This document shows positions 19,637 through 40,336 of a stretch of 64,000 nucleotides of DNA, piece by piece. Both the position numbers and the translations under genes were made by a program. The notes under the pieces are model-generated. The model worked only from the letters and a program-made list of their open reading frames with translations, searched no databases and was not told the origin of the DNA. Each line of letters begins with the position of its first letter. The stretch's first letter is position 1. The DNA comes from Terriglobia bacterium (GTDB lineage: Bacteria; Acidobacteriota; Terriglobia; Terriglobales; Acidobacteriaceae): contig JAIQGK010000007.1 in assembly GCA_020072645.1 (NCBI GenBank), forward strand, positions 186,001 to 250,000, read 5' to 3'.

Positions 19637-20599
19637 ATGTTGAGCAATAGAAACACCTTGGCCAAGTCAGTCCTGATTATTCTTCTTGCGTGTGCCGTGA
19701 ATTCTCTGGCCGCGGATGGAAAGAAAAAAAGCAAGGGAGATCTTCCGAAGCTGGGAAGTGCGCCTGCCGTGCTTTGGCGCGAGCCAGTGGACATCAAGAC
19801 ACGAGACTTGTTCTACGGACAGGGTGGCCCGGACCACATGCCGAACGGCAAGCTGACGTTCATTGAAGAAAAGTTTAATGGAGTAAATCCCAAGTTCGAT
19901 GTTCGTGACGAATCTGGTATCCGCTGGGGCGTGAAAATGGGCAATGAAGCCAAGCCTGAAACGGCCGCCACGCGCTTGATATGGGCCGTGGGCTATTTCA
20001 CCAATGAGGATTATTACCTGCCTGAATTGAAGGTGGGGGACCTAGCTCTCACTCGCGGCCAAAACCGGATCAAAAACAGCAAGATCGATGGAGTCAGACT
20101 GAAACGCCACAACAAGGGTGAGCACCAGGTTGCCGACTGGTCATGGGACAAGAATCCATTTGTTGGAACAAAAGAGCTCGATGGTCTGAAGATCATGATG
20201 GAAATCATTTGCAACACGGATTTAAAGACCGTGCAGCAGCACGTGTATGACGTGAAGGGCGTGGAACAACGCTATGTGGCTGCTGACGTGGGAGGAAGTT
20301 TCGGAAAAGCAGGCAAAGGCTTTATGCGCACAAAGGGCAAGCTCTCTGACTATCAGGCATTGCCTTTGATCAAGAATGCTGGTCCCGAATACATAGATTT
20401 CTGGCATTTCAAACATATTCCACGCGCCAATGCCATTTGGATTGGCGGCTACCTGACCCAGCTCTCAGATCAGCAACTCCGTGATGCTTTTCGAGCAGGC
20501 GGATTTTCGGATGCGGAAATCGATGGGTTTAGCCGCAAGGTCCGAGACAAGATCAATGAACTCGTAAGCCTTCAGAGTCCCTCAGCTCGTCTTGATTGA
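19637..20599 (+). CDS. Exported protein of unknown function, second gene of exporter operon
   Basis: A 320-aa protein with a signal peptide (LIILLACAVNSLA, cleavage near residue 25) and GGAG 6 bp before the ATG. Notable segments are LIWAVGYFTNEDYY, WDKNPFVGTKELDGLK, MEIICNTDLKTVQQ and AADVGGSFGKAGKG. The spacing of an N-T-D and a later D-x-GGSFG recalls kinase-like folds, but I would not assign that. A C-terminal helical region (LSDQQLRDAFRAGGFSD) ends the protein. It lies 18 bp downstream of the ABC exporter, so the two are almost certainly co-expressed. Function is unknown. Confidence 0.7.
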   Translation: MLSNRNTLAKSVLIILLACAVNSLAADGKKKSKGDLPKLGSAPAVLWREPVDIKTRDLFYGQGGPDHMPNGKLTFIEEKFNGVNPKFDVRDESGIRWGVKMGNEAKPETAATRLIWAVGYFTNEDYYLPELKVGDLALTRGQNRIKNSKIDGVRLKRHNKGEHQVADWSWDKNPFVGTKELDGLKIMMEIICNTDLKTVQQHVYDVKGVEQRYVAADVGGSFGKAGKGFMRTKGKLSDYQALPLIKNAGPEYIDFWHFKHIPRANAIWIGGYLTQLSDQQLRDAFRAGGFSDAEIDGFSRKVRDKINELVSLQSPSARLD

Positions 20600-28009: not shown

Positions 28010-29233
28010 ATGCCACACAAAAAGCTTGACCGCCGTTTGCTAAGCAGTATCCATAAGCTCACCGGATCAGCACGGGTCCGCATGGAACTGGGCTTTTCGT
28101 CGAGACAAATGTCTCTATGTCCAACGCTGCCCGTCGTGCGCCTGAAGGACAGAAAAACACTTATTGCCGTGCTCTTGAACCCTGAAATGAATTTCGGGGA
28201 TCTATACAGCCAGGGTGACATTGATGTGGAGGGTGACCTCGTCAAGGCGCTGGAGGCTCTCTACCATGCACCCGACCGTCTTATTACGCGCCTGATTTCG
28301 CGCTGGCTTGGATGGGTTCAGTCCTGCGGGCTGAGCGCTGCGCGCAAGAATATCCATCACCACTACGATATCTCGACCGATTTTTACAAACTCTGGCTTG
28401 ATCCAAAGCTTGTATATACATGCGCTTACTTCCCAGGTGAGAACACAACTCTGGAAGACGCGCAGAAGGCAAAAATGGACCTGGTCTGCCGCAAGCTCTG
28501 GTTGCAACCAGGTGAAACCGTGGTGGAAGCTGGTTGCGGCTGGGGCGCACTAAGCCTCCACATGGCCCGCGAATACGGCGTACGGGTAAAAGCTTTCAAC
28601 ATCTCACATGAGCAGATTGTATTTGCCCGGGAACAGGCAAAACGTGAAGGACTGGAGAGCAGAGTTGAATTTATTGAAGATGATTACCGTAATATCGCTG
28701 CTCATTATGACGCGTTCGTCTCAGTGGGAATGTTAGAGCACATTGGCCGCGAGCATTATCAAGAATTAGGGCAGATTATCCATCGGTCGATTGGTGATAC
28801 GGGCCGCGGCCTTTTGCATTTCATCGGAAAAAACCAGCCGCAGCCATTCAGCGTCTGGATCAGGAAACGCATATTTCCCGGCGCTTATACACCTACTCTG
28901 CGGGAGGCAATCGACGTACTTGAACCGCATGACTTCAGCGTACTTGATGTTGAAAATCTGCGCATGCACTATGCGCGGACGATTGAGTTCTGGTTGCAGC
29001 GTTATGAACGCCACTTTGATCAAGTGGTGGAGCACTTTGGCCTGACTTTTGCCCGAATGTGGCGGCTGTATCTAGCCGGTTCCATCGCCGGTTTTAGAGT
29101 GGGCACTCTACAATTATTCCAACTTGTATTTGCCGGCCGGTCTTGTAAGTCGCAGCCGTTGACTCGGGCCCACCTCTACAATGCAATTGAACAGGATTCA
29201 CAGGATGTGCAATGGACTCGTGCGATGTCCTAA
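28010..29233 (+). CDS. cfa: Cyclopropane-fatty-acyl-phospholipid synthase
   Basis: A 407-aa SAM-dependent methyltransferase of the Cfa family. The substrate-proximal motif HHYDISTDFYKLWLD is near residue 125, the SAM-binding glycine motif VVEAGCGWGALSLHMA near 175, and the conserved SVGMLEHIGREHY near 240. It adds a methylene bridge (or a methyl group, in related enzymes) to unsaturated acyl chains of membrane phospholipids. GGAG lies 8 bp before the ATG. Its 3' end overlaps the following flavoprotein gene by 22 bp, so the two work as a unit, as in lipid-methylating systems where a methylene intermediate is reduced. Confidence 0.9.
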   Translation: MPHKKLDRRLLSSIHKLTGSARVRMELGFSSRQMSLCPTLPVVRLKDRKTLIAVLLNPEMNFGDLYSQGDIDVEGDLVKALEALYHAPDRLITRLISRWLGWVQSCGLSAARKNIHHHYDISTDFYKLWLDPKLVYTCAYFPGENTTLEDAQKAKMDLVCRKLWLQPGETVVEAGCGWGALSLHMAREYGVRVKAFNISHEQIVFAREQAKREGLESRVEFIEDDYRNIAAHYDAFVSVGMLEHIGREHYQELGQIIHRSIGDTGRGLLHFIGKNQPQPFSVWIRKRIFPGAYTPTLREAIDVLEPHDFSVLDVENLRMHYARTIEFWLQRYERHFDQVVEHFGLTFARMWRLYLAGSIAGFRVGTLQLFQLVFAGRSCKSQPLTRAHLYNAIEQDSQDVQWTRAMS

Positions 29234-30300
29234 TCGTAGGCGGAGGTCCCGCAGGATCATCTTGCGCCTGGGCTTTGCGCTCTTCGGGATTGCACGTTGT
29301 GATCCTGGATAAAGCGAGCTTCCCGCGTAACAAGGTGTGCGGAGGCTGGATCACTCCGTGGGTCTTGCAGGCGCTTGAGATCGACGCCGCAGATTACTCC
29401 CTGGACCGAACCATGCAAGAGATTCGCGGCTTTCGCGTGAGCTCAATGGGAGCGCAGGAAGTCGGAATCCCATATGACCGCGTCATCAGCTATGGCATCC
29501 GGCGTTGCGAGTTTGACGAGTACCTGCTCCGCCGCTCGGGTTCTGAGATACGTGAAGGGACGGGGATCAGTAAGATCGAGCGCTCTGGCGAGCACTGGAT
29601 CATTAATGGCGCAATCAAAGCCAAGATGCTGGTCGGGGCTGGGGGACATTTCTGTCCAGTGGCGCGGCACATGGGAAATAGCAATTCAGATGAACCGGTG
29701 GTAGCGCAGGAGATTGAGTTTGAGATGTCTCCTGACGAAGCGCGTCTCTGCGGCATCCAGGGGGAGATCCCTGAACTCTATTTTTGTCCGGATTTACAAG
29801 GCTATGGCTGGTGTTTTCGCAAAGGTAATTTTTTGAATATAGGACTGGGCCGGCTTGACCAGCACGCGCTTTCCAAGCACGTGGCTGATTTCCTTGGGTT
29901 CCTGCGCGCCACAGGCAAAGTAGTTTTTGATCTTCCCGGCAAATTCTGCGGACACGCTTACCTGCTTTTCGGCTACAGCAAGCGGAAGGTAATGGCTGAT
30001 TCGGTGATGCTCATCGGAGATGCTGCTGGCCTTGCATTCCCTCAAAGTGGCGAAGGCATCCGGCCTGCGGTGGAATCAGGATTGCTTGCGGCGAGCGTGA
30101 TCAAGGCGGCGGACGGACAGTACGACGCGGAGAGCCTGCGAGCTTATCCCGCACTGCTTAGTAAGCAATTTGGCGGTCATAGGTCCGCCGCAGCGCTGGC
30201 TTACGTGCCTCATTGGTTGCGCAATGGCTTTGCGCACTTTTTGCTAAAGACACAATGGTTCTGCCGTCGCGTGGTGGTGGAGAATTGGTTTCTTCGTTGA
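29212..30300 (+). CDS. FAD-dependent oxidoreductase (geranylgeranyl reductase-like)
   Basis: A 362-aa flavoprotein. The N-terminal dinucleotide-binding motif is LIVGGGPAGSSCAWALRSSG, followed by DKASFPRNKVCGGWITP. The second FAD contact is in MLIGDAAGLAFPQSGEGIRP near residue 265, as in the geranylgeranyl reductase and lipid-reductase group. It overlaps the Cfa gene by 22 bp, which suggests it reduces or modifies the same acyl chain, for example the methylene intermediate of methyl-branched fatty acids. Substrate is inferred from context only. Confidence 0.82.
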   Translation: MDSCDVLIVGGGPAGSSCAWALRSSGLHVVILDKASFPRNKVCGGWITPWVLQALEIDAADYSLDRTMQEIRGFRVSSMGAQEVGIPYDRVISYGIRRCEFDEYLLRRSGSEIREGTGISKIERSGEHWIINGAIKAKMLVGAGGHFCPVARHMGNSNSDEPVVAQEIEFEMSPDEARLCGIQGEIPELYFCPDLQGYGWCFRKGNFLNIGLGRLDQHALSKHVADFLGFLRATGKVVFDLPGKFCGHAYLLFGYSKRKVMADSVMLIGDAAGLAFPQSGEGIRPAVESGLLAASVIKAADGQYDAESLRAYPALLSKQFGGHRSAAALAYVPHWLRNGFAHFLLKTQWFCRRVVVENWFLR

Positions 30301-30377: not shown

Positions 30378-31274
30378 CTATAGCGGTTTTGATAGCCTTG
30401 CCGTTCCTTCGGCATCGCCAGCCTGTTGAGCGGTGAACATTCCATCCCGAGCGGGTATCGATGATGCTAAATCGCCGTTGCGTCGCCCAACTTTGATCGC
30501 TCGCATCAAGTCAGCCAGAAAAAGAAGAATTGGGGGATCGGTTGGCAAAGGTGCGCGCAAGATGAGATCGGTATCGCCAGAGACGTCATCTTCGGACACA
30601 CGGATGGCTTGTCCACCAGCGCGCAAAACCGAATCATGGCAGAAACAGTCGCGAGCCTGGATTGGGAGTTCCATCCCAAGAGCAAACAGGAAAGACTTGC
30701 CCTGTGGAACACCCTGCATATAGTAGTCGCCATTCGGTGCGGCAATCGTGCAAGCCAGCGGCTTGGATTGTGGAATCGGGGCAGAAAAGAGACCGAGGCA
30801 GACAATTCCCTTGAAACCGTCCGGCAATATCACGCGTCCTGAAAAACCGGGACCGGCAGCAAGTCTGGCGTGCGGAGCCGGCAAGCTCTGGTGATCGCGT
30901 ATGGCGTGGCGCGGCGATTGCGCCAGGGCGCGAAATTGGCGCGGTGAAACGCCAAAGGAGCCGGTAAATCTCCGCGTGAAAGTACCTACGCTGCTGTAGC
31001 CCACGTCATAGCAGATGTCTATGACCTTGCTGCGGGTGTGCAAAAGCAAATCGCGTGCGGCGTCCAGACGCAACGCAGAAAGAAAATGAAGTGGCGGCAG
31101 GCCGGTGACACTTCGAAAAGTCCGCGTGAAATGATACGGGCTGGCAAAGCCGATTTTAGCCAGCGAGCGCAATGACATTGGCTGCCCCATCTGCCCGCGC
31201 ATGGCGGCGATGGCACGCTTTACCGATTCATAGTGCAGCCTCGTCGTTGATTCACGTACTACTGCCTGGTCCAT
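30378..31274 (-). CDS. AraC family transcriptional regulator
   Basis: A 298-aa regulator with the two helix-turn-helix motifs of AraC/XylS proteins at the N-terminus rather than the usual C-terminus: MSLRSLAKIGFASPYHFTRT and ICYDVGYSSVGTFTRRFTGS, ending in SPRQFR near residue 115. A C-terminal domain of about 180 residues (GFKGIVCLGLFSAPIPQSKP, GDYYMQGVPQGKSFLFA) could bind a ligand. It lies 39 bp downstream of the PKS-associated thioesterase on the same strand, with AAAGGA before its ATG, so it may be the last gene of the polyketide operon and its regulator. Confidence 0.85.
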   Translation of the reverse strand: MDQAVVRESTTRLHYESVKRAIAAMRGQMGQPMSLRSLAKIGFASPYHFTRTFRSVTGLPPLHFLSALRLDAARDLLLHTRSKVIDICYDVGYSSVGTFTRRFTGSFGVSPRQFRALAQSPRHAIRDHQSLPAPHARLAAGPGFSGRVILPDGFKGIVCLGLFSAPIPQSKPLACTIAAPNGDYYMQGVPQGKSFLFALGMELPIQARDCFCHDSVLRAGGQAIRVSEDDVSGDTDLILRAPLPTDPPILLFLADLMRAIKVGRRNGDLASSIPARDGMFTAQQAGDAEGTARLSKPL

Positions 31275-31313: not shown

Positions 31314-31748
31314 TCAGTGGGAAGCAACTGGCTCAAGGAACCCAGCCAGGGCCCGACGCAGACACTCAGGAACAGGCGATGGCGTAAGACGCCCTTCATC
31401 ACGGCGCATGCACGCTATCTGCTGTTCCCCGCGCGCAACCAGCACCGGTTCCGCTCCGTCCCGCCAGTATTCAAAACGCATTGTGATCCTGTTCTGCTGG
31501 ATCTCTTCCAGGAACATTCGCACGGTCACCTCTTCAAAGGCCTTCAATTCATCCAGAAAAGTGCATGAGCAATGCAGAGTAATGAGCGCAAGCCCTTCCT
31601 CCAATTGCTGAAGGATTTCAGGAGCGTATTCGCGAAGAAAATACTCGCGCGCTCTTCCCTGCCAGTGGAAGTAATTGGTGAAATAGACGTTCCCTGTCAG
31701 GTTCGTCTCTTCGAATCCAATCACCTGCTTGTATTCATAAAACTTCAT
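31314..31748 (-). CDS. Enediyne/polyene-type PKS thioesterase (hot-dog fold)
   Basis: A 144-aa hot-dog thioesterase of the type that releases the polyene from enediyne synthases. The N-terminal signature FYEYKQVIGFEETNLTGNVY followed by FTNYFHWQGRAREYFLRE matches the E10 group (for example SgcE10 and DynE7) as I know it. The frame opens at 31856, but similarity begins at the ATG 31748, so that start is used. It overlaps the 3' end of the synthase gene by 14 bp, showing coupling. In known clusters this enzyme hydrolyses the linear polyene from the synthase ACP. Confidence 0.88.
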   Translation of the reverse strand: MKFYEYKQVIGFEETNLTGNVYFTNYFHWQGRAREYFLREYAPEILQQLEEGLALITLHCSCTFLDELKAFEEVTVRMFLEEIQQNRITMRFEYWRDGAEPVLVARGEQQIACMRRDEGRLTPSPVPECLRRALAGFLEPVASH

Positions 31749-34700
31749 GGCGCTGTTGGGCGATAAAGGCAAATGCAACTCCGTCCTTGAAACCTTGAAT
31801 CGACGTTCGAAAAGTCGCGGCCTGCAATTCTCCTGATGAAAAAATGGTCCAGCCATCTGTAGTCCGGGTGCTAACTTGCAGATGCTGGTCGAAGGCGGCC
31901 CCGCATTTTCTTAAGCTTTCTTTCAAAGCCCAGACCTGAGTGGCCGTGTTTTGCAGCGGAATATTTGTTTCAGTCGCAATCAACTGCGCTACAGAAAACC
32001 ACTGTTCACCCAGCAATGCTCTCCATGACGCCTCATCGCGTTCTGTACACTGTTCCATATCGCAACCCACGGGCTGTTGCGAGCGTGCTGTGAGAATCAA
32101 ACTTCCGCAGTGCGAACGGGAAACTTGCGTTTCTGGGTGTGCTTCTTCTTCCGGCTTGCCGTCCGGCCTATGGCAGGAACCTTTGGAATCCTGATTCGTT
32201 GCAGCTTCATTCAAAGAAATACGTAGATCGGCGGATGGCACGATGTCGGCCAGTCGACGCTCCAGATAGGGCGCAAGCAAAGCCGCCGGCCAGGCATATT
32301 GCATCTCAATGGGCGCAACAGCATGCAGTCGCAACCCACTCCAGCGCTCGCAAATTTGGCCATTTGAATTTTCGACTTCTACGTCATAAATGAAATCATC
32401 GCCATTGTGCTCCCGTTCTTCGGCTGTAACGATAGCTGCCTGAGTTGTCCATGTTGCGCTGGTCGAGACCGAATCTACTCCGGTCGGCAGAACGGTTTTG
32501 TGAGGAATACAGGCTTGAACACAATGGATGACTGCGTCTCGCATGGCTGCATCGCCCAGCAGCATGTCGCCGGGAAGGTAACGCGCGAACCACTGCTGTT
32601 TTACGGAGCCGGAGATCCCCGCAACACAGCGCTTCGCTTGGAGCTCGTGATATGCAGTGATACGGCAGAAGCGCCCCTGATGAAAAAGAATGCGATCGTA
32701 AAGATCTCCCTCAGGACTGAGTGGAAGAATTTGCCGTTGAGTCAAACCGCCTACGGTGAGCTCCATGTCTCCATCCGACGGAGCGCCGTAAACACACTCG
32801 CCGGTGAAGTGATCGACATGAAAGGACGTGGTTGAACTGCGCACCGCGACTGCAATCACTCCGGGTCGGCGGCGCACAGCAGCCACCCGCAGCACAATCG
32901 ATTTCCCCGGAGGAACAACGATGGGTCGATTAAAGCGGAGCTTGTGAAACTGCGGCAATTGTTTAGTCTCTTCCAGCGCGCTTGCCACCTGCGCCATCGC
33001 TTCCATGCCCATTACGGCCGGCAAGATTTGATCTCCCCGGAAGCAGTGATCTTTCAGATACGGATCTGTGTCGGCAGAAATTTCCGCATCGGCAATCAGC
33101 TCAATGCCGGGATAGTGCAGGCGCACATTTTCCAGAAACCGCAGGAAAGGCAAATCAGAATGGCCAAAGCCAAGCGTCGGCGAGTTGCCGGTTCGCGCTG
33201 TAACAATGCAGGATGCAGGCGCATTTTCCCATGCAAGCATTTCCGGTAAGCAGCTAAGCGCTTGATCAAGCGGCAGCGGCACAATTCCCTGTTGTTGCAA
33301 AGACTCTAAAACGCCCAGACGCTGGCCCATTCCCACGCCCGCCCAGACTGACCATTCCAGGTTCAAACAACGGCAAGCAGGGTGCTGACGTTGCCAATTT
33401 TCCACTTCCATCCTGAGCCATTCGTTGGCGAGCCCATAATGCCCTTCGCCCTGGAGCCCGCTCCTGCCGATAATGGAGCCAAAGGTAAGCAGCAGGCGAA
33501 GATTGTGTGCCCCGAGAGCTCTTAATATATTGCGCAGCGCAGCTACTTTTACTTCCAATGTGGTGCGCAGGTCGCGCTCTGTCAGATCTTCCATCTGTTT
33601 AGGATTGTTGATGCCCGCTCCGTGAAGCACAGCCGTCACGGTTCCCACTTCAGACTGGATTCGTTGAATGGTCTCAGACGCAGCCGCTTCATCGGTGACA
33701 TCGGCCGAAAAATATCCGAATTTTACGTTGGCATTGCGGAAACGGTTCAGGTTGTTCTGCAGTTCTTCATCGTGCTTCGGATGCGAACGTCCCAGCAAGG
33801 CCAGACGGCACCCGGAAGAGCGGGCCAGAGTGAGGGCACACTCAGCCGTAATTCCCTTGCCGCCCCCTGAAACCAGCAACAAGTCATCTACGCCCAGGGC
33901 TTTCGTTGTGTCATTCCGCTCGGGCCAAAGCGCTTTTAACTGTGGCTCGCGGCGAATGCCATTCGCGTCGTAAAGAGCTTCCGTAAAGCCCGATGCGCCC
34001 ATCGCCTCGCGCGCAATCAACTCAGCCGCATGTGCGGACGCTCCAGGAACATCAACCACTGCGACGGTCATTTCGCGATGTTCAAGGAACAATGAACGAG
34101 CAAGGGCTCCGGCACCGCCCCCATTCTGGACAAAAACAATATGGTCAATCTTCTCTTTCAAACATTGCTGCGCAGATCGCAGCAGAAACTTCGCTGAGTC
34201 CGTGCTTCGCTCGCGAGGGACGCAGCAAATAACTCCTCTACCGGAAACCGATTCAAACTGCTGAGCCAGCGATTGTGTGAAATCTCCTTGCTCCATTGCC
34301 ATTACCTGCCACTGACTCGATCCACTTTGCGGCGAAGGGCGAGTTCGAAGCGGTTTTTCCACGAACTCGACTTCCAAAGTTCGAATCCACGGCTCCGCTC
34401 CTGCCGGATACTTTTGCTCGCTGCGCGAGGCTGTATGATGCCGGTTCTGTTCCAATATCTCCGCGGCTTCTGCCAGAGTGGCATTCGTAAATTCTGCCGG
34501 AGAGAGCGGCGCAACCGATCCCGACTGCGCGGCGGCTTCCAACACGATTTGGCTTATGCTGATCGAGTTAAGATGAAGATCGTCCAGAAAACGGTTTTCA
34601 GGCAGGATCGTCTCCAAAGGAAGTTCTGCCCGTTGCGCGACCAGCCTGCGTAGTCCTTCCAGGACCGATGTTGACGAGGGTGTGACAACCGGCAGCGGCT

Positions 34701-37482
34701 TGGCGACCACTGGCAGAACGGGTGCGACCGCGGGAGCAAAGCTCGTATTCGGAACGCTTTCGCAGGGGTTCTGCAGGAATTTGTGCTTATGCAGCAAGTC
34801 AATTGGCCGGTAAAAGCGATCGGCAAAAAGAGCCTTCGGATGAACGCTTGCGCCAAGTGCAAATGCAGCTCCAGCCGCGGCCAGCAATCCTCGCAGCGAA
34901 TCGCCTCCAACATTGAGCGCCACGGCAGGCAAACCAAACTGCTGTGACATGATATCCGTCAGTATCGATCCTGGTCCCACTTCAATGAGAAGATCTGCTT
35001 CCGCAGCCATGCGTCCAGCGGCCTTTGAGAACAGTACCGGCATCGTAAGCTGGTCAGTGAGTAGTTGCCGCAGATCGGCATTTTCTTCTACAACGGTTCC
35101 CGTTACTGTGCTGAATACGCGGCGTTCTTTGTGCATATACCCCAGGCGTTCCGACTCCAGATACCGGGAGAATGCCATGGCCGCATCCGCCATCAGCGGT
35201 GAATGAAAAGCGTGCGAAACGGGAAGCATGGTAGCCGTGACTCCGTCAGCGGTCAGGTGGCTTAGAAAACGCTTTACGGCAAATGCCTTTCCAGAGACGA
35301 CCGTCTGTGTCGGTGCATTGTCCGCAGCCACAACAATAGGATCGCCATTCAACCTGTGCCTTACATCTTCACAGGCTGCTTGAATGGATGCCATACTGCC
35401 AGTAGGATCGCCCAGTTGGGACATCAAGCGTCCACGTTCTGCAACCATACGCAACAGCGTTTTTTCATCCATGGCTTCGGCCCAGCACAAAGAGACCAGC
35501 TCTCCCAGGCTATGACCGGCGGCCATGTTTGCTTCGATTCCCAACGAGCGCAGCAGCAGCAGTCCAGCAAGTGAAGCCGTAACAATGCAGGGCTGAGCGA
35601 CCTCAGTGTCAGCACTCCGCACCTGTGGAAGATGGGCACGCTTGTATAGGTCGCGAACATCACTGAACCGCCGCGACCAAATTCCGCCATCGGCATAAAC
35701 AGGCGAAGCTTGTCCGGGAAAAAGGAAGCCGATGCGCGGTGGCGCATCACCGCTGTTTAGAAATACTCCGTGACTACAATCCATTAGCGTCGTGCTGCCC
35801 GATGCGCAACAATCGCGCAGCACCTGAATGGCGTGCCCAAGTTCTTGTGGGGTCGCCGCGACACATGTCGCCCGCACTGGCTTATGGCCGCTATCCAATT
35901 TATTGGCGAGATGAGCCGCCAGGTCGGTCATCTCCGCATAGGAAATCTCCTTGGCAAGCATGAGGATTTCATCCAGCTGAGCTGCCAATTCGTTTAGGTC
36001 TGAAGCTTGCAGGAGAAAAAGTTCGCAATCCTGCACGGACGAAAGCCGCTGCTGCTCATAGCCCGTAAAGCTCTTGCGACGGGAACGATCTGCAGCCTCA
36101 AGCGTGATATGGGTATTGATCCCGCCAAAACCAAATGCGCTTACACCAGCGCGCGCCGGCGCTTCGTCCGGCCACAGCTCAGCTTCACGCATGATGCGTA
36201 GCGCAGGCCGCTCTCCATTGAGTTCGGAATGAGGACGGTCGCAGCCTGTAGTCGGAGGAATGACTTTTGCCTGTAAGACCATCGCAGCCTTGATCAAGCC
36301 GGCCACCCCGGCTGCCGCTTTGGTGTGTCCGATATTGGCTTTTATTGATCCGATGGCCGCCGCTGGAGCGTGATCGCTAGCTGCTCGCCTTGCCTGCGAG
36401 AGCGCCTGTAACTCGACGGCGTCACCAATAGAGGTTCCTGTTCCATGACCTTCAAAATAACTAATGGAATCGATGCCGTATCCTGCACGACGATAAGCTC
36501 TATCGAGTGCAAGAATCTGTCCTGACGACTCCGGTCGCGTGATGCCGCCGCTGCCGTCGGAAGAAATTCCCCAACCGCGAATCACAGCGCGAACGGCATG
36601 CTGTTGCGCCACTGCTTCTTCATGTCGCATCAGCACCACAAATCCGCAACCTTCGCCCGGCCAGAAGCCTGACGAGTGTTCATCGAATACGCGCATCTTA
36701 TCTCCGGCCAGCGCGCCAAGCTTGGAAAAACCGGCCAGTTCAAATGGATCCAGGCTCAGGTCAACACCGCCCGCGAGAGCCACATCAACATCGTCGGCTT
36801 GCAGCGCGGAACAGGCATTGGCAATTGCAAGCAGGCTGGAGGCGCAAGCACCATCCACTACGTAGCCGCCACCTTTCAGGTCAAAGTAATTGCAGATCCT
36901 GCCGGCAATCGTATTGGAAAGGCCTCCGGCCAGAGAGTCTTCAGTCGTGGCGGGAAAAGGACTTTTGTAGAGCGACTCAATCTCGGCGATCAGGCGCGCG
37001 TAATCGCCAGGAAGCTTTTTCCCGCCATTCTGGAGCGCAGCGCTGATCACGCGCCGAACGTAAGGCCAACGCAAGCGCATCAGGTTGGCGCGTGAGAACT
37101 CTCCAGTCAGCGTATTGCCAACAAAAACGCCGGTTCTCTCACGTTGACTGGCGCTGTCATTCGTCATCCCCGCATCCGTTAGAGCTCGCTCCGCGACATC
37201 AAGGGCCAACCAATGCGCGAGATCGGTGGAGAGAAACGTGTCGCCGGAAACTCGAAAACGCACACGGTCGAATTCGTAATCCTCCAGCACCGCCGCCATG
37301 GTCACGGAAATAGTGTCTTCATTCTGTTGTGGCGCGGAATAATCGGCAACATTAAGACGCAGGCGAGGAATGCGGCGGAAGGAGCGCCGCTGCGCCAGCA
37401 CGTTCTCCCACAATTCACGTGGAGAACGGGCCTCGGCATAGCGGCACGCCATACCGACAAGGGCAATTTCACTCATGCCCAA
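31735..37482 (-). CDS. Enediyne-type iterative type I polyketide synthase (PKSE-like)
   Basis: A 1915-aa synthase with the domain order of enediyne PKSE. KS about 3-465: Cys213 in VDGACASS, His346 in EGHGTGT, His386 in NIGHTK. AT about 585-895: Ser658 in GHSLGE, His760 in SHAFHS. ACP about 935-1010: Ser973 in DDLHLNSIS. KR about 1200-1440: GGGKGITA, catalytic Ser1336 and Tyr1349. DH about 1455-1725: His1479 in YLKDHCFRGDQILPAVMG, and Asp in LGDAAMRDAVIH. C-terminal phosphopantetheinyl transferase about 1795-1915: GCDME and WALKES. All catalytic residues look intact, and the AT is not a typical modular one. It should make a linear polyene from malonyl units. It is the third gene of an antiterminator-DUF1702-PKS-thioesterase operon. 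Confidence 0.92.
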   Translation of the reverse strand: MGMSEIALVGMACRYAEARSPRELWENVLAQRRSFRRIPRLRLNVADYSAPQQNEDTISVTMAAVLEDYEFDRVRFRVSGDTFLSTDLAHWLALDVAERALTDAGMTNDSASQRERTGVFVGNTLTGEFSRANLMRLRWPYVRRVISAALQNGGKKLPGDYARLIAEIESLYKSPFPATTEDSLAGGLSNTIAGRICNYFDLKGGGYVVDGACASSLLAIANACSALQADDVDVALAGGVDLSLDPFELAGFSKLGALAGDKMRVFDEHSSGFWPGEGCGFVVLMRHEEAVAQQHAVRAVIRGWGISSDGSGGITRPESSGQILALDRAYRRAGYGIDSISYFEGHGTGTSIGDAVELQALSQARRAASDHAPAAAIGSIKANIGHTKAAAGVAGLIKAAMVLQAKVIPPTTGCDRPHSELNGERPALRIMREAELWPDEAPARAGVSAFGFGGINTHITLEAADRSRRKSFTGYEQQRLSSVQDCELFLLQASDLNELAAQLDEILMLAKEISYAEMTDLAAHLANKLDSGHKPVRATCVAATPQELGHAIQVLRDCCASGSTTLMDCSHGVFLNSGDAPPRIGFLFPGQASPVYADGGIWSRRFSDVRDLYKRAHLPQVRSADTEVAQPCIVTASLAGLLLLRSLGIEANMAAGHSLGELVSLCWAEAMDEKTLLRMVAERGRLMSQLGDPTGSMASIQAACEDVRHRLNGDPIVVAADNAPTQTVVSGKAFAVKRFLSHLTADGVTATMLPVSHAFHSPLMADAAMAFSRYLESERLGYMHKERRVFSTVTGTVVEENADLRQLLTDQLTMPVLFSKAAGRMAAEADLLIEVGPGSILTDIMSQQFGLPAVALNVGGDSLRGLLAAAGAAFALGASVHPKALFADRFYRPIDLLHKHKFLQNPCESVPNTSFAPAVAPVLPVVAKPLPVVTPSSTSVLEGLRRLVAQRAELPLETILPENRFLDDLHLNSISISQIVLEAAAQSGSVAPLSPAEFTNATLAEAAEILEQNRHHTASRSEQKYPAGAEPWIRTLEVEFVEKPLRTRPSPQSGSSQWQVMAMEQGDFTQSLAQQFESVSGRGVICCVPRERSTDSAKFLLRSAQQCLKEKIDHIVFVQNGGGAGALARSLFLEHREMTVAVVDVPGASAHAAELIAREAMGASGFTEALYDANGIRREPQLKALWPERNDTTKALGVDDLLLVSGGGKGITAECALTLARSSGCRLALLGRSHPKHDEELQNNLNRFRNANVKFGYFSADVTDEAAASETIQRIQSEVGTVTAVLHGAGINNPKQMEDLTERDLRTTLEVKVAALRNILRALGAHNLRLLLTFGSIIGRSGLQGEGHYGLANEWLRMEVENWQRQHPACRCLNLEWSVWAGVGMGQRLGVLESLQQQGIVPLPLDQALSCLPEMLAWENAPASCIVTARTGNSPTLGFGHSDLPFLRFLENVRLHYPGIELIADAEISADTDPYLKDHCFRGDQILPAVMGMEAMAQVASALEETKQLPQFHKLRFNRPIVVPPGKSIVLRVAAVRRRPGVIAVAVRSSTTSFHVDHFTGECVYGAPSDGDMELTVGGLTQRQILPLSPEGDLYDRILFHQGRFCRITAYHELQAKRCVAGISGSVKQQWFARYLPGDMLLGDAAMRDAVIHCVQACIPHKTVLPTGVDSVSTSATWTTQAAIVTAEEREHNGDDFIYDVEVENSNGQICERWSGLRLHAVAPIEMQYAWPAALLAPYLERRLADIVPSADLRISLNEAATNQDSKGSCHRPDGKPEEEAHPETQVSRSHCGSLILTARSQQPVGCDMEQCTERDEASWRALLGEQWFSVAQLIATETNIPLQNTATQVWALKESLRKCGAAFDQHLQVSTRTTDGWTIFSSGELQAATFRTSIQGFKDGVAFAFIAQQRHEVL

Positions 37483-37506
37483 ACCACGATCAGAGCTGCC
37501 GCAATT

Positions 37507-38505
37507 TTAGTCAGGTTTTGTCGAAACCAACGATTGGACGAGTTCAGAATCATGTGAGTTCCCTCGTACTGGAGTTCGTGAAGTTGAAAAGTAGTTCTGT
37601 ACCAGCTCTCGCCATTGCTGATATGGAGAGGAAGAGTTTTTGTTGACATGTGCCAGCGCACGGTCACACAGGGTAGCGGCCTGCTCTGTTTTTATCCCGG
37701 CCAAAACAGCACACGCCTCTTCCGTATGCGCGGCTTTATTACCTGCCAGTTGCCTGGCTTTGGCGGCAAAAGCAGCGCCCTGCGCAAGAGCAGAAGTGAA
37801 GCAGCCCGCGAGTGATACTGCATCTTTCATTTCCGCAGCCCGCGCGCCGCCAGCATAGGCGCAGGCCAAACCAATGCCGCTCCAAGCATCGCTTTGATAT
37901 ATGTCGGGGAAACCGGAGATCGTTATCGCGATCTGATGAAAATCACAACCATGGACAAACCACAAGCTGCGCCCGAATCCTTGATAAAAAACATGGCGAG
38001 CATCCGCAGAGAGGCGTTTAACGGCATTGATTACGGGTTCTTTGTAATGGAAGTACCCCTGGTGAAATCCATAGCCATCCAGAACCAGCCAGCGCAGTAC
38101 AGGATCGAATTTGCAGATAACTTTCTCTATGCGCCAGCGCAACCACGGCAACCGGGCGCACGCCCATCCTGCACCGACGTGAAGCATATAGATGTGTCTT
38201 TTGCCTGCACCTTTTATAAATTCTGCAAAAAGGTTCGAGCCGGGGACTAAGGCATCGCGAAGCGCCAGCGCCATGGCCGCACCTTCATAAGCAAAGCCTA
38301 GATACTCCAACTCGACTCGCTCAAGCTTTTCAGTGAGCCTTTGCAACCTATTTTCCTGCAGGGCCTCGTGATATCCCACAAGAAAAATCGTACCCACATG
38401 CTCCAGTCGGTCGCGGACCTCGGGTTTTACAACGAAAAATCCGCGACGCGCGAATGTAACTTCGCGGCGGTCGATGACTAACAATTTGTTTAGAATCGGC
38501 AACAT
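37507..38505 (-). CDS. DUF1702 family protein (enediyne cassette)
   Basis: A 332-aa protein with the DUF1702 landmarks: ELEYLGFAYEGAAMALALRD near residue 65, HVGAGWACARLP, LVLDGYGFHQGYFH, and YQGFGRSLWFVHGCDFHQI followed by FPDIYQSDAWSGIGLACAYAGG. These proteins recur next to enediyne PKSE genes, where they belong to the conserved cassette; their biochemical role is unresolved. It starts only two bases after the stop of the NusG-like gene and ends 24 bp before the synthase start. Its presence is the best evidence, besides the PKS itself, that this is an enediyne-type and not a generic polyketide locus. Confidence 0.88.
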   Translation of the reverse strand: MLPILNKLLVIDRREVTFARRGFFVVKPEVRDRLEHVGTIFLVGYHEALQENRLQRLTEKLERVELEYLGFAYEGAAMALALRDALVPGSNLFAEFIKGAGKRHIYMLHVGAGWACARLPWLRWRIEKVICKFDPVLRWLVLDGYGFHQGYFHYKEPVINAVKRLSADARHVFYQGFGRSLWFVHGCDFHQIAITISGFPDIYQSDAWSGIGLACAYAGGARAAEMKDAVSLAGCFTSALAQGAAFAAKARQLAGNKAAHTEEACAVLAGIKTEQAATLCDRALAHVNKNSSSPYQQWRELVQNYFSTSRTPVRGNSHDSELVQSLVSTKPD

Positions 38506-38507
38506 TG

Positions 38508-39131
38508 CTAACGCCGAGTACCGGATGAAATGCGTGGAAGATCGATTGGTTCATCCTCTGACATCTGGACAGGAAACTTTTGCGGCAATGGTCTATCGAT
38601 AACCAAGGGCGTGCTCTTGAGTGTGCGCACTGATTCGAGATCGACTTCAACTGCAAACGCTCGCCCAATGGAATCAAGCGAAACTACGACACGAGTGTTG
38701 TTCACCTTGCGAACCAGAATTCCCTTGAGTCCCGCAAGGGCGCCAGCGGTAATCACAACACGCTGTCCCTCATTCAGACATTCATGCGGCACTGCATTGC
38801 CGGACTTCAACCCGCGTCCAATCCACGCAATTTCTTCATCACTGAGGACCGCGGGAGAACTGCCCGAACCAACAAAATAGAGCACATTTGGCAGTGTGAG
38901 CACGCGCATGCGTTCCGCATGCGGCAGATGGACAAAGACGTAGCCGGGAAATAAGGGCACATCAAGCGTAACCCGGCGGTCTTTCCACTGCCGAAGCGAC
39001 CGAAAGCACGGAAGAAAGTGTTTTACTTGTAGATGATCGAGCCGGGACGCAGTTGTCTTTTCCTGATTTGTGCGGACGAACAGCACAAACCATTGCGGCT
39101 GAAATGAGTCAAATGGAGGGAGGGTGCCCAC
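38508..39131 (-). CDS. Specialised NusG paralogue (LoaP/UpxY/RfaH-type antiterminator)
   Basis: A 207-aa protein, GTG start at 39131. The N-terminal NGN domain (WFVLFVRTNQEKTTASRLDH, LFPGYVFVHLPHAERM, VLYFVGSGSSPAVLSDEE) binds RNA polymerase, and a KOW domain follows (EGQRVVITAGALAGLKGILV near 130-150). The C-terminal tail after KOW is longer than in housekeeping NusG. It is the first gene of the PKS operon, only two bases from the next gene, which is the position taken by LoaP and UpxY proteins at the operon they serve. It probably suppresses termination so the 8-kb operon is fully transcribed. Confidence 0.88.
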   Translation of the reverse strand: MGTLPPFDSFQPQWFVLFVRTNQEKTTASRLDHLQVKHFLPCFRSLRQWKDRRVTLDVPLFPGYVFVHLPHAERMRVLTLPNVLYFVGSGSSPAVLSDEEIAWIGRGLKSGNAVPHECLNEGQRVVITAGALAGLKGILVRKVNNTRVVVSLDSIGRAFAVEVDLESVRTLKSTPLVIDRPLPQKFPVQMSEDEPIDLPRISSGTRR

Positions 39132-39541
39132 GATTGTATTGATTGGCTAAACGAGTGAAGGATGAAGCTTCGCCCCGTCACTTACAGGGATGTGTGACCT
39201 GGACCCCTTCTTGCGGTGAGAAAAGACGCAGTCTTTGAAAGTGCAAGCAGGCGAACGGAAATATTGACCTGCTGCCGGCTGCGAGCGAGCTGATTAAAGT
39301 TTCTCCTCCCGGAGCCGCCCTATCAGCCCCAGGATTAGAGAAATCCACATTACGACTTGAGAATTGCATTAGCAATAGGCAAACAAAACGGTATGAAAAA
39401 TTTTTTTGGTTTTGTTCCAAAACGGGAAGGTCACATCGCAGCCAGAGAAGCCGCCGGTGTTCGGCGGGAGCAAGCGGCGCGCTTGCTCGAATGCAAGAAG
39501 CGCGCCGCCCGTACAGGTGTTCTATTCCTTGATCTCTACTC
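39132..39541 (-). promoter_or_regulatory. Leader and promoter region of the PKS operon
   Basis: About 410 bp without a supported gene, upstream of the NusG-like gene. A perfect short hairpin lies at 39222-39236 (AAAGAC, GCA loop, GTCTTT), of the size that LoaP-type proteins recognise in leaders, though I cannot show it is the site. A long GC-rich inverted repeat (GGCGCGCTTGC near 39477 with its complement near 39498) and an AT-rich hairpin around 39403-39422 lie further upstream. No convincing -10/-35 pair was found. Confidence 0.35.
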
Positions 39542-40336
39542 TCACTGGGCAGAGATGCAAGTAGCTATAGCAGTCGCGGAGCCGGTGGGTCCGTTACTCA
39601 AAGTCGCGGCGGCGGGTGACTGCGGGCTAGCAGGCTGGACCCCAGAGCTACACTTGCTCGGCACCACTGGATGCGGCCCATTATGTACCGGCCTTGGGTA
39701 TATACCGCCCGACGGAAATGTTGAGGAGGATGGGTATCCGGCAGGCGGCGTTGTTGTGTAAGTGGAGTTCGTGGAACTCAGTGAGATCGTTTTGGCTGCC
39801 TGATGCCCAACGTAATTCGCTGAATTTGTAACGCTGGTGCCGGCCTTCACAAAAATCACATCCGCATTTACGTTGAAGCTGGAGTCAAACGTGCCGTCCG
39901 TGCGGACCGTCATGGTCCCAGTGGATCCGGAAAGAGAATCCGGCTGCGGCAATACGCTGGTGGAAACTTTTCCACCGGAATTGTTGATGGTCACGTATAC
40001 ATCCACCTGCTGTCCGTTGAAGGTAACAGAGGAAGCGCTCTTCATGAACAATGCGGTTACTTCCAATGGTACCGTTCCACCGCCCTGAGGCACGTCCTGT
40101 GTGCGATGCATGATCGTGTCAGTGGTTCCCGTACCGCCCTGAATTGGCACGCCATTCAGAGGCACGTTGCCCAAATTGACCGAGCTAAGATCGATGGAAG
40201 CACCTGACCCGGTTTGCAACAGGTCGTAGCCAGCCGTTTGCGCCGAGGCGAATACAGAAACGGCAAATATCGACAGCACCAACAAACTCTTTGACACGAA
40301 CGATCTTGTCAACATACTGGACAGCGGATTTTTCAT
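39542..40336 (-). CDS. Secreted protein of unknown function
   Basis: A 264-aa exported protein with a signal peptide (LLVLSIFAVSVFASAQ, cleavage near residue 33). The mature part is Ser/Thr/Gly-rich and beta-type, with LSSVNLGNVPLNGVPIQGGT and VTALFMKSASSVTFNGQQVD, then a Ser/Thr/Pro-rich C-terminal third (STNSTYTTTPPAGYPSSST). There is no enzymatic motif. Low complexity and secretion suggest a surface or matrix protein. It is separated from the PKS operon by 410 bp and is not obviously part of it. Confidence 0.65.
   Translation of the reverse strand: MKNPLSSMLTRSFVSKSLLVLSIFAVSVFASAQTAGYDLLQTGSGASIDLSSVNLGNVPLNGVPIQGGTGTTDTIMHRTQDVPQGGGTVPLEVTALFMKSASSVTFNGQQVDVYVTINNSGGKVSTSVLPQPDSLSGSTGTMTVRTDGTFDSSFNVNADVIFVKAGTSVTNSANYVGHQAAKTISLSSTNSTYTTTPPAGYPSSSTFPSGGIYPRPVHNGPHPVVPSKCSSGVQPASPQSPAAATLSNGPTGSATAIATCISAQ

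Follow-up and report, generated by a model that had tools for sequence, protein, structure and literature searches.

How can an operon for an enediyne-type polyketide synthase (PKS) belong to a working enediyne cassette when two of the core genes, UnbV and UnbU, are not beside it? In actinomycetes this core set produces the enediynes, antibiotics that cleave DNA. The question is raised by a 64,000-nucleotide stretch, referred to below as the window, from the draft genome of a Terriglobia bacterium of the Acidobacteriaceae (GCA_020072645.1, contig JAIQGK010000007.1, here called C7, positions 186,001 to 250,000). The window carries, on its minus strand and in this order, genes for a NusG paralogue, a DUF1702 protein, the PKS, a thioesterase (TE) and an AraC-type regulator. 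Comparison with related genomes indicates that this operon once held UnbV and UnbU and has lost them by deletion, that a pair of another lineage lies on a second contig (C3), and that one short leader element precedes both units, which suggests that a single transcription factor may tie the two together. We consider it probable, at roughly 60%, that the operon in the window is one of two loci that together make up an enediyne cassette, and that its NusG paralogue acts on both.

The deletion is read from the related genome G401, in which the operon has the order NusG-DUF1702-UnbV-UnbU-PKS-TE, followed by AraC (only the start of which falls within the stretch compared), with a PKS 83% identical to that of the window and syntenic flanking genes. 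The alignment of the window with G401 is interrupted by a gap of about 2.87 kb, the segment that holds UnbV and UnbU in G401; window position 37484 corresponds to L128:9194 and window position 37479 to L128:6322. What remains is a scar at 37480–37553 (minus strand), consisting of the first 70 bp of the former UnbV gene (37484–37553) and 4 further bp; a 2-bp indel, by comparison with G401, lets the DUF1702 frame run into this stub, which supplies its final residues. On this alignment, UnbV and UnbU have been deleted from the window operon. The junction also bears on the start of the PKS, which is likely to be the ATG at 37476 (1,913 aa) rather than the TTG at 37482 (the 1,915-aa frame), because homology to the G401 PKS resumes 3 bp before this ATG and the bases further upstream are deletion scar; the DUF1702-PKS gap would therefore be 30 bp.

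Both deleted functions are represented elsewhere in the genome. A genome-wide search gave a single match each for UnbU and UnbV, side by side on C3 (open reading frames (ORFs) 415750–416682 and 416679–418649), and the possibility that the genome has neither gene was rejected. The preliminary description of this operon was right that the pair is absent from the window, but the case is not simply one of a cassette that lacks it. Reckoned from the contig ends, the C3 and C7 loci are at least 413 kb apart. The C3 proteins are 60% (UnbU) and 58% (UnbV) identical to those of genome G257. In UnbU and UnbV trees, built on 32 and 30 rows out of 67 and 66 available, the C3 genes cluster with G257 and with a second UnbV-UnbU pair of genome G397 (support 98/94 and 100/97), and the pairs of G401 and G399 and the first pair of G397 are set apart from it. 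The trees place the C3 genes in a different UnbV/UnbU lineage from that of the in-operon pair. G397 has the same gene order as G401 and then the second pair directly after AraC; its first UnbU (G397:C8, L127:12277–13092) is shortened by about 64 internal residues, the frame being kept. Between about 412.9 and 420.4 kb of C3, the matches with G401 are confined to short pieces of the G401 UnbV; the flanks of this stretch match on three G401 contigs, so that synteny across it could not be judged.

The C3 pair is followed by a gene for a 199-aa histidine-rich protein, a relative of which lies inside the G257 cassette and another of which is a hypothetical protein of the C-1027 cluster (WP_010056327.1). 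Of the 95 loci searched, 19 encode a relative, a count that takes in the C3 locus itself and that of G257. Their alignment shows invariant histidines, including H44, H48, H83, H119, H123 and H156, as might be expected of a membrane enzyme that binds metal. The protein encoded at C3:419123–420112, upstream of the UnbV unit, has no Pfam match and is 66% identical over 300 residues to the protein encoded at window 19637–20599. By the Nei-Gojobori method (own script), the ratio of nonsynonymous to synonymous substitution (dN/dS) is 0.129 and 0.154 for the C3 UnbV and UnbU against G397, with dS above 1.4; against G401, it is 0.095 for NusG, 0.207 for DUF1702, 0.163 for the PKS and 0.121 for TE.

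The link between the loci is a leader element at 39167–39199 (minus strand), GGTCAC-N-CCC-TGTAA-GTGAC-GGGGCGAAGC, the 3' end of which lies 36 bp upstream of the NusG start. It emerged from a comparison of leaders as a block that precedes the NusG operon in the window and likewise in G401 and G397, and that recurs, in a more divergent form, in the C3 UnbV leader. Searched as a 31-position pattern with up to three mismatches, it occurs exactly twice in the 6.4-Mb genome, once ahead of the NusG operon and once ahead of the C3 unit. There is one site each in G401, G397, G398 and G396 and none in G257, G399, G400 and G402, the cassette contig of G399 ending before its leader; a reversed control pattern gave no site in any of the nine genomes of the genus. 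For the 20-base core at up to three mismatches, the chance expectation in the 64-kb window is 0.01. At up to two mismatches, the core has 74 sites in 63 of 398 genomes of the family, and the reversed control has sites in 20 genomes, so that part of the 63 must be due to chance. A NusG-family frame lies just downstream of 18 of the 30 core sites fetched as loci, and of 17 of the 22 full elements that we aligned (the window, 20 loci with TCAC in place, and L203, added by eye). The element therefore has two sites in this genome and is linked to NusG genes across the family.

The genes behind the element, where examined, mostly belong to capsule export. Polysaccharide-export/SLBB genes (Pfam) follow it in L212, L214, L224 and L225, and in three of these a Wzi gene comes next; a GNVR protein follows in L226, a TetR gene comes first in L222, and L210 has a gene with no match. 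The first large genes of 13 element loci are mutually related by BLASTP. In G398 (L178, G398:C48:22000–38000), a NusG paralogue of the same subfamily and the element precede an operon for an extracellular contractile injection system, with sheath, tube, Pvc16 and eCIS-core proteins; this genome has no DUF1702 or UnbU match. The window's genome has five further NusG-family genes, and the 20-kb stretch around each contains neither the element nor a match to its covariance model.

The NusG paralogue itself (38508–39131, minus strand, 207 aa, GTG start) scores 62.9 bits against the Pfam NusG model (cut-off 22.2) and 120.3 bits against the NCBIfam model for UpxY (NF033644, cut-off 100), and falls below the cut-offs of the RfaH (TIGR01955, 66.7 of 144.5 bits), LoaP (NF033641, 64 of 125 bits) and NusG models. 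It is 86% and 59% identical to the paralogues that lead the operons of G401 and G397. That a NusG-type protein heads the operon, as first described, is thus borne out and can be refined to the UpxY type.

The element is proposed to be structured. In the alignment of the 22 elements, its helix is 98.2% paired, with an outer pair that is C-G in 11, G-C in 10 and otherwise in 1; none of 500 shuffles reached the covariation score and percentage paired of the whole structure, which also exceed those of slid versions. A covariance model gave 12 strong matches in 32 sources (47–65 bits, the next at 13.4), all of them sites used to build the model, so that the result speaks for specificity and not for independent discovery. 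Known RNA families had no match up to an E value of 5 in window 39000–39700, and their four matches in the C3 leader were all far below gathering scores. A possible H-type pseudoknot with loop CCC has 78.4% of cells paired and no covariation. Among single-sequence RNA folds of four elements, the covarying helix is in the best fold of the window copy only, the other three folding as a CCC/GGG hairpin, with z-scores of the four from 0.09 to −1.84; folding the GCGAAGC end as DNA gave weak structures or none. A d(GCGAAGC) mini-hairpin is stable, but this is not counted as evidence here.

The remaining genes of the operon support its assignment to the enediyne class. The PKS (31735–37476, minus strand) has 850 of 1,898 aligned residues (45%) in common with SgcE, the C-1027 synthase, a name taken from the available part of PMC8725005 and not from the sequence record. 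The KS, AT, KR and DH domains exceed their Pfam cut-offs and the model for the KS C-terminal extension falls short (28.2 of 33 bits); no Pfam model matched for ACP or PPTase, both of which were judged by motif alignment to SgcE. The motifs checked against SgcE are kept in all six domains, in the order KS-AT-ACP-KR-DH-PPTase, and structures of the DynE8 AT match PKS residues 485–906 (numbered in the 1,915-aa frame). A search of plasmid records with the PKS gave 894 matches; the 40 listed, 39 from Streptomyces and one from Nonomuraea, have 98–100% coverage and 42.7–44.6% identity, and many carry enediyne annotations. The C-1027 plasmid SGLP1 of S. globisporus matches over 99% of the PKS at 44.4% identity. 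With the protein of a neighbouring gene as query, plasmid matches came from mixed phyla. In a ketosynthase (KS) tree of 96 rows, made by a quick method with several long outgroup rows and with rows L020 and L022 dropped beforehand, the window and C-1027 fall together on the 89-row side of a branch with 99% support, and the PfaA-type (including L164, at 2,497 bits), modular and FabF rows fall outside. A synthase of the polyunsaturated fatty acid type, for which the PfaA model TIGR02813 gave 475 bits against a cut-off of 1,010.1, was rejected on this score and on the tree. By alignment, motifs and KS tree, the PKS is a true enediyne-type synthase, as the preliminary description had proposed.

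DUF1702 (37507–38505, minus strand, 332 aa) matches PF08012 at 326 bits (cut-off 25), well inside its family. The thioesterase (31314–31748, minus strand) is likely to have 144 aa, the 180-aa ORF beginning within the PKS; its best solved structures are CalE7 (1.1e-42), 4i4j (9.4e-39) and DynE7 (4.8e-38), which agrees with the E7/E10 hotdog type. The second of these was deposited as an 'ACP-polyene thioesterase', and we take it to be SgcE10. The AraC-type regulator (30378–31274, minus strand, 298 aa; PF12833, 75.9 bits) lies 39 bp downstream of TE, and homologues occur in the cassette loci of G257, G307, G152, G397 and G401 (partial in the last). The five genes, their order and the spacings first reported all held (2 bp for NusG-DUF1702, 24 bp for DUF1702-PKS if the TTG start is used, and a 14-bp PKS/TE overlap if counted from the internal TE ATG at 31748). 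Genes resembling those for cyclopropane-fatty-acid synthase and geranylgeranyl reductase (window 28010–30300) converge on the AraC gene.

DUF1702 and an E7/E10-type thioesterase thus stand beside the PKS, and UnbV and UnbU are in the same genome and not in the same cluster. All five genes occur together in G257, G307 and G152, and in the fetched stretch of 48 of the 80 named loci, which are the best 80 of 556. Of 396 genomes sampled from the phylum, 12 encode DUF1702, with G257, G307, G152 and G238 among them. At L017 (G391:C22:4500–24400), relatives of DUF1702, UnbV and UnbU lie beside a different large PKS, the KS of which is only about 40% identical to that of the window over 260 residues, and L018–L022 encode distant DUF1702-like proteins in other genomes of the phylum, some adjoining other ketosynthases. 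Enediyne core cassettes of this kind lead, according to the title of a 2024 study by Gui et al., to a diiodotetrayne.

We propose that the C7 operon would make and release a polyene chain, as the PKS with TE does for other enediyne synthases (PMC8725005, available part), and that the C3 UnbV, UnbU and small histidine-rich protein, which is present in many enediyne clusters, would serve later core steps. The in-operon pair would have been lost by the deletion of about 2.87 kb, and a pair of another cassette lineage would have taken over. The NusG paralogue encoded on C7 may load onto RNA polymerase at the element and ride through both units, keeping the halves co-expressed, and both halves would feed one product, which would be enediyne-like. 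The NusG gene and the element were probably taken over together from an operon for capsule export before the cassette was split. As to the wider proposal, that this previously undescribed structured element is the loading site of a UpxY-type NusG subfamily in this bacterial family, the two forming a portable read-through module of capsule, contractile-injection and enediyne operons, here holding together in trans a cassette split by deletion and displacement, we regard the odds as even.

Several observations weigh against this account. The covariation comes from a single pair, the outer one, and the numbers of pairs changed on both sides and of further pair types were reached in 500 and 472 of the 500 shuffles. 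The C3 copy is the most divergent at the helix, as the sole element to break the outer pair, and it breaks a second pair too. No NusG frame lies within 1.5 kb of five of the 22 full elements, which precede capsule-type genes (four) or UnbV (one). The NusG tree does not cleanly separate the two element types and so yields no number of independent changes; one of its rows (L219) was evidently a wrong frame. G257 has a complete cassette with neither an adjacent NusG match nor an element site, the dN/dS of the 199-aa protein against its G257 relative is high (0.58), and it is DUF1702, not the PKS, that was shown to be single in the genome. To these may be added two points on the distribution of the genes, which are best weighed with the alternative that they favour, namely that the C7 operon makes a linear polyene as its end product, a pigment or protectant, the C3 pair being a relic or having another use. 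The PKS occurs with no DUF1702, UnbV or UnbU in the fetched stretch of 13 of the 80 loci, some of them on short contigs, and G238 has DUF1702-PKS-TE with only a weak UnbU match (9.3e-4, 27%); moreover, a Rhodococcus synthase with an enediyne-resembling KS makes polyenes, according to the accessible part of PMC11563203. We nevertheless consider this alternative fairly unlikely, as the C3 pair is intact and conserved, DUF1702 and UnbU are present in the same five of nine genomes of the genus (two of the other four being less than 90% complete), and the operon's leader element recurs at one place only, which is before the C3 unit.

The element could instead be a promoter or a binding site of the AraC regulator, given its place in a non-coding leader, a regulator that the two units could have in common and the AraC gene of the operon. 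This appears unlikely, however, because elements of the family precede NusG genes, capsule-export genes and the G398 injection-system operon, and because a helix with a covarying pair inside the element suits RNA or displaced single-stranded DNA. That the split is itself an artefact, with UnbV-UnbU lost in assembly or C3 derived from another organism, is conceivable in a draft genome of 42 contigs but very improbable: the scar lies inside a 261-kb contig, no second UnbV or UnbU was found, the completeness of the genome is 99.14% and its contamination 0.22%, and the flanks of both loci match G401 at 82–89%. The tetranucleotide distance between the window and C3 is 0.072, against 0.093–0.131 to 20-kb stretches of four other contigs, although a congener's stretch is about as close (0.09 and 0.11), so that a near relative stays compatible with tetranucleotide use.

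The two-locus cassette favoured here resembles several known systems. Like the C-1027 cassette on SGLP1, it comprises DUF1702, a CRTAC1/UnbV protein, an RnfD-like/UnbU protein and the PKS, and C-1027 also has a thioesterase of the same kind further downstream and a homologue of the small histidine-rich protein. In C-1027, however, UnbV-UnbU-PKS are contiguous, whereas the set of the window's genome is on two contigs, with UnbV-UnbU from another lineage and a NusG paralogue leading the PKS operon. UpxY antiterminators act in capsule formation and lead capsule or polysaccharide operons; the window paralogue exceeds the UpxY cut-off, and its relatives in the family precede capsule-export genes where examined, but it leads a PKS operon of an enediyne cassette, and a structured leader element is proposed here. 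In the available part of PMC12691694, UpxY antiterminators are placed in Bacteroidetes, and a precedent is described in LoaP of Bacillus velezensis, a NusG paralogue that, with the dfn leader hairpin, controls polyketide operons; there too a paralogue and a leader hairpin stand before polyketide operons and one paralogue serves more than one operon, but LoaP belongs to another NusG subfamily and uses another hairpin. RfaH and ops, also treated in that source, likewise combine an operon-specific NusG paralogue with a short leader element and several possible loci, although the window paralogue is under the RfaH cut-off.

As far as the accessible portions of the open-licence literature on enediynes with Acidobacteria or DUF1702 go, no acidobacterial enediyne cassette has been described, and the available part of PMC10308959 reports enediyne-type KS sequences from several non-actinobacterial phyla, Acidobacteria not being among those named there. 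Nor did we find in the open-licence literature anything on UpxY in Acidobacteria, or on UpxY and NusG together with a biosynthetic gene cluster. Searches for enediyne core genes normally look for one cluster, and a cassette in two parts could be overlooked, as it would be scored as incomplete. The functions of UnbV and UnbU could be approached through the natural deletion in this operon and the two-pair locus of G397, and the leader element provides a short, testable sequence for operon choice by UpxY-type NusG paralogues. Its occurrence before capsule, injection-system and enediyne genes suggests that a control module of this kind is able to pass from one operon to another.

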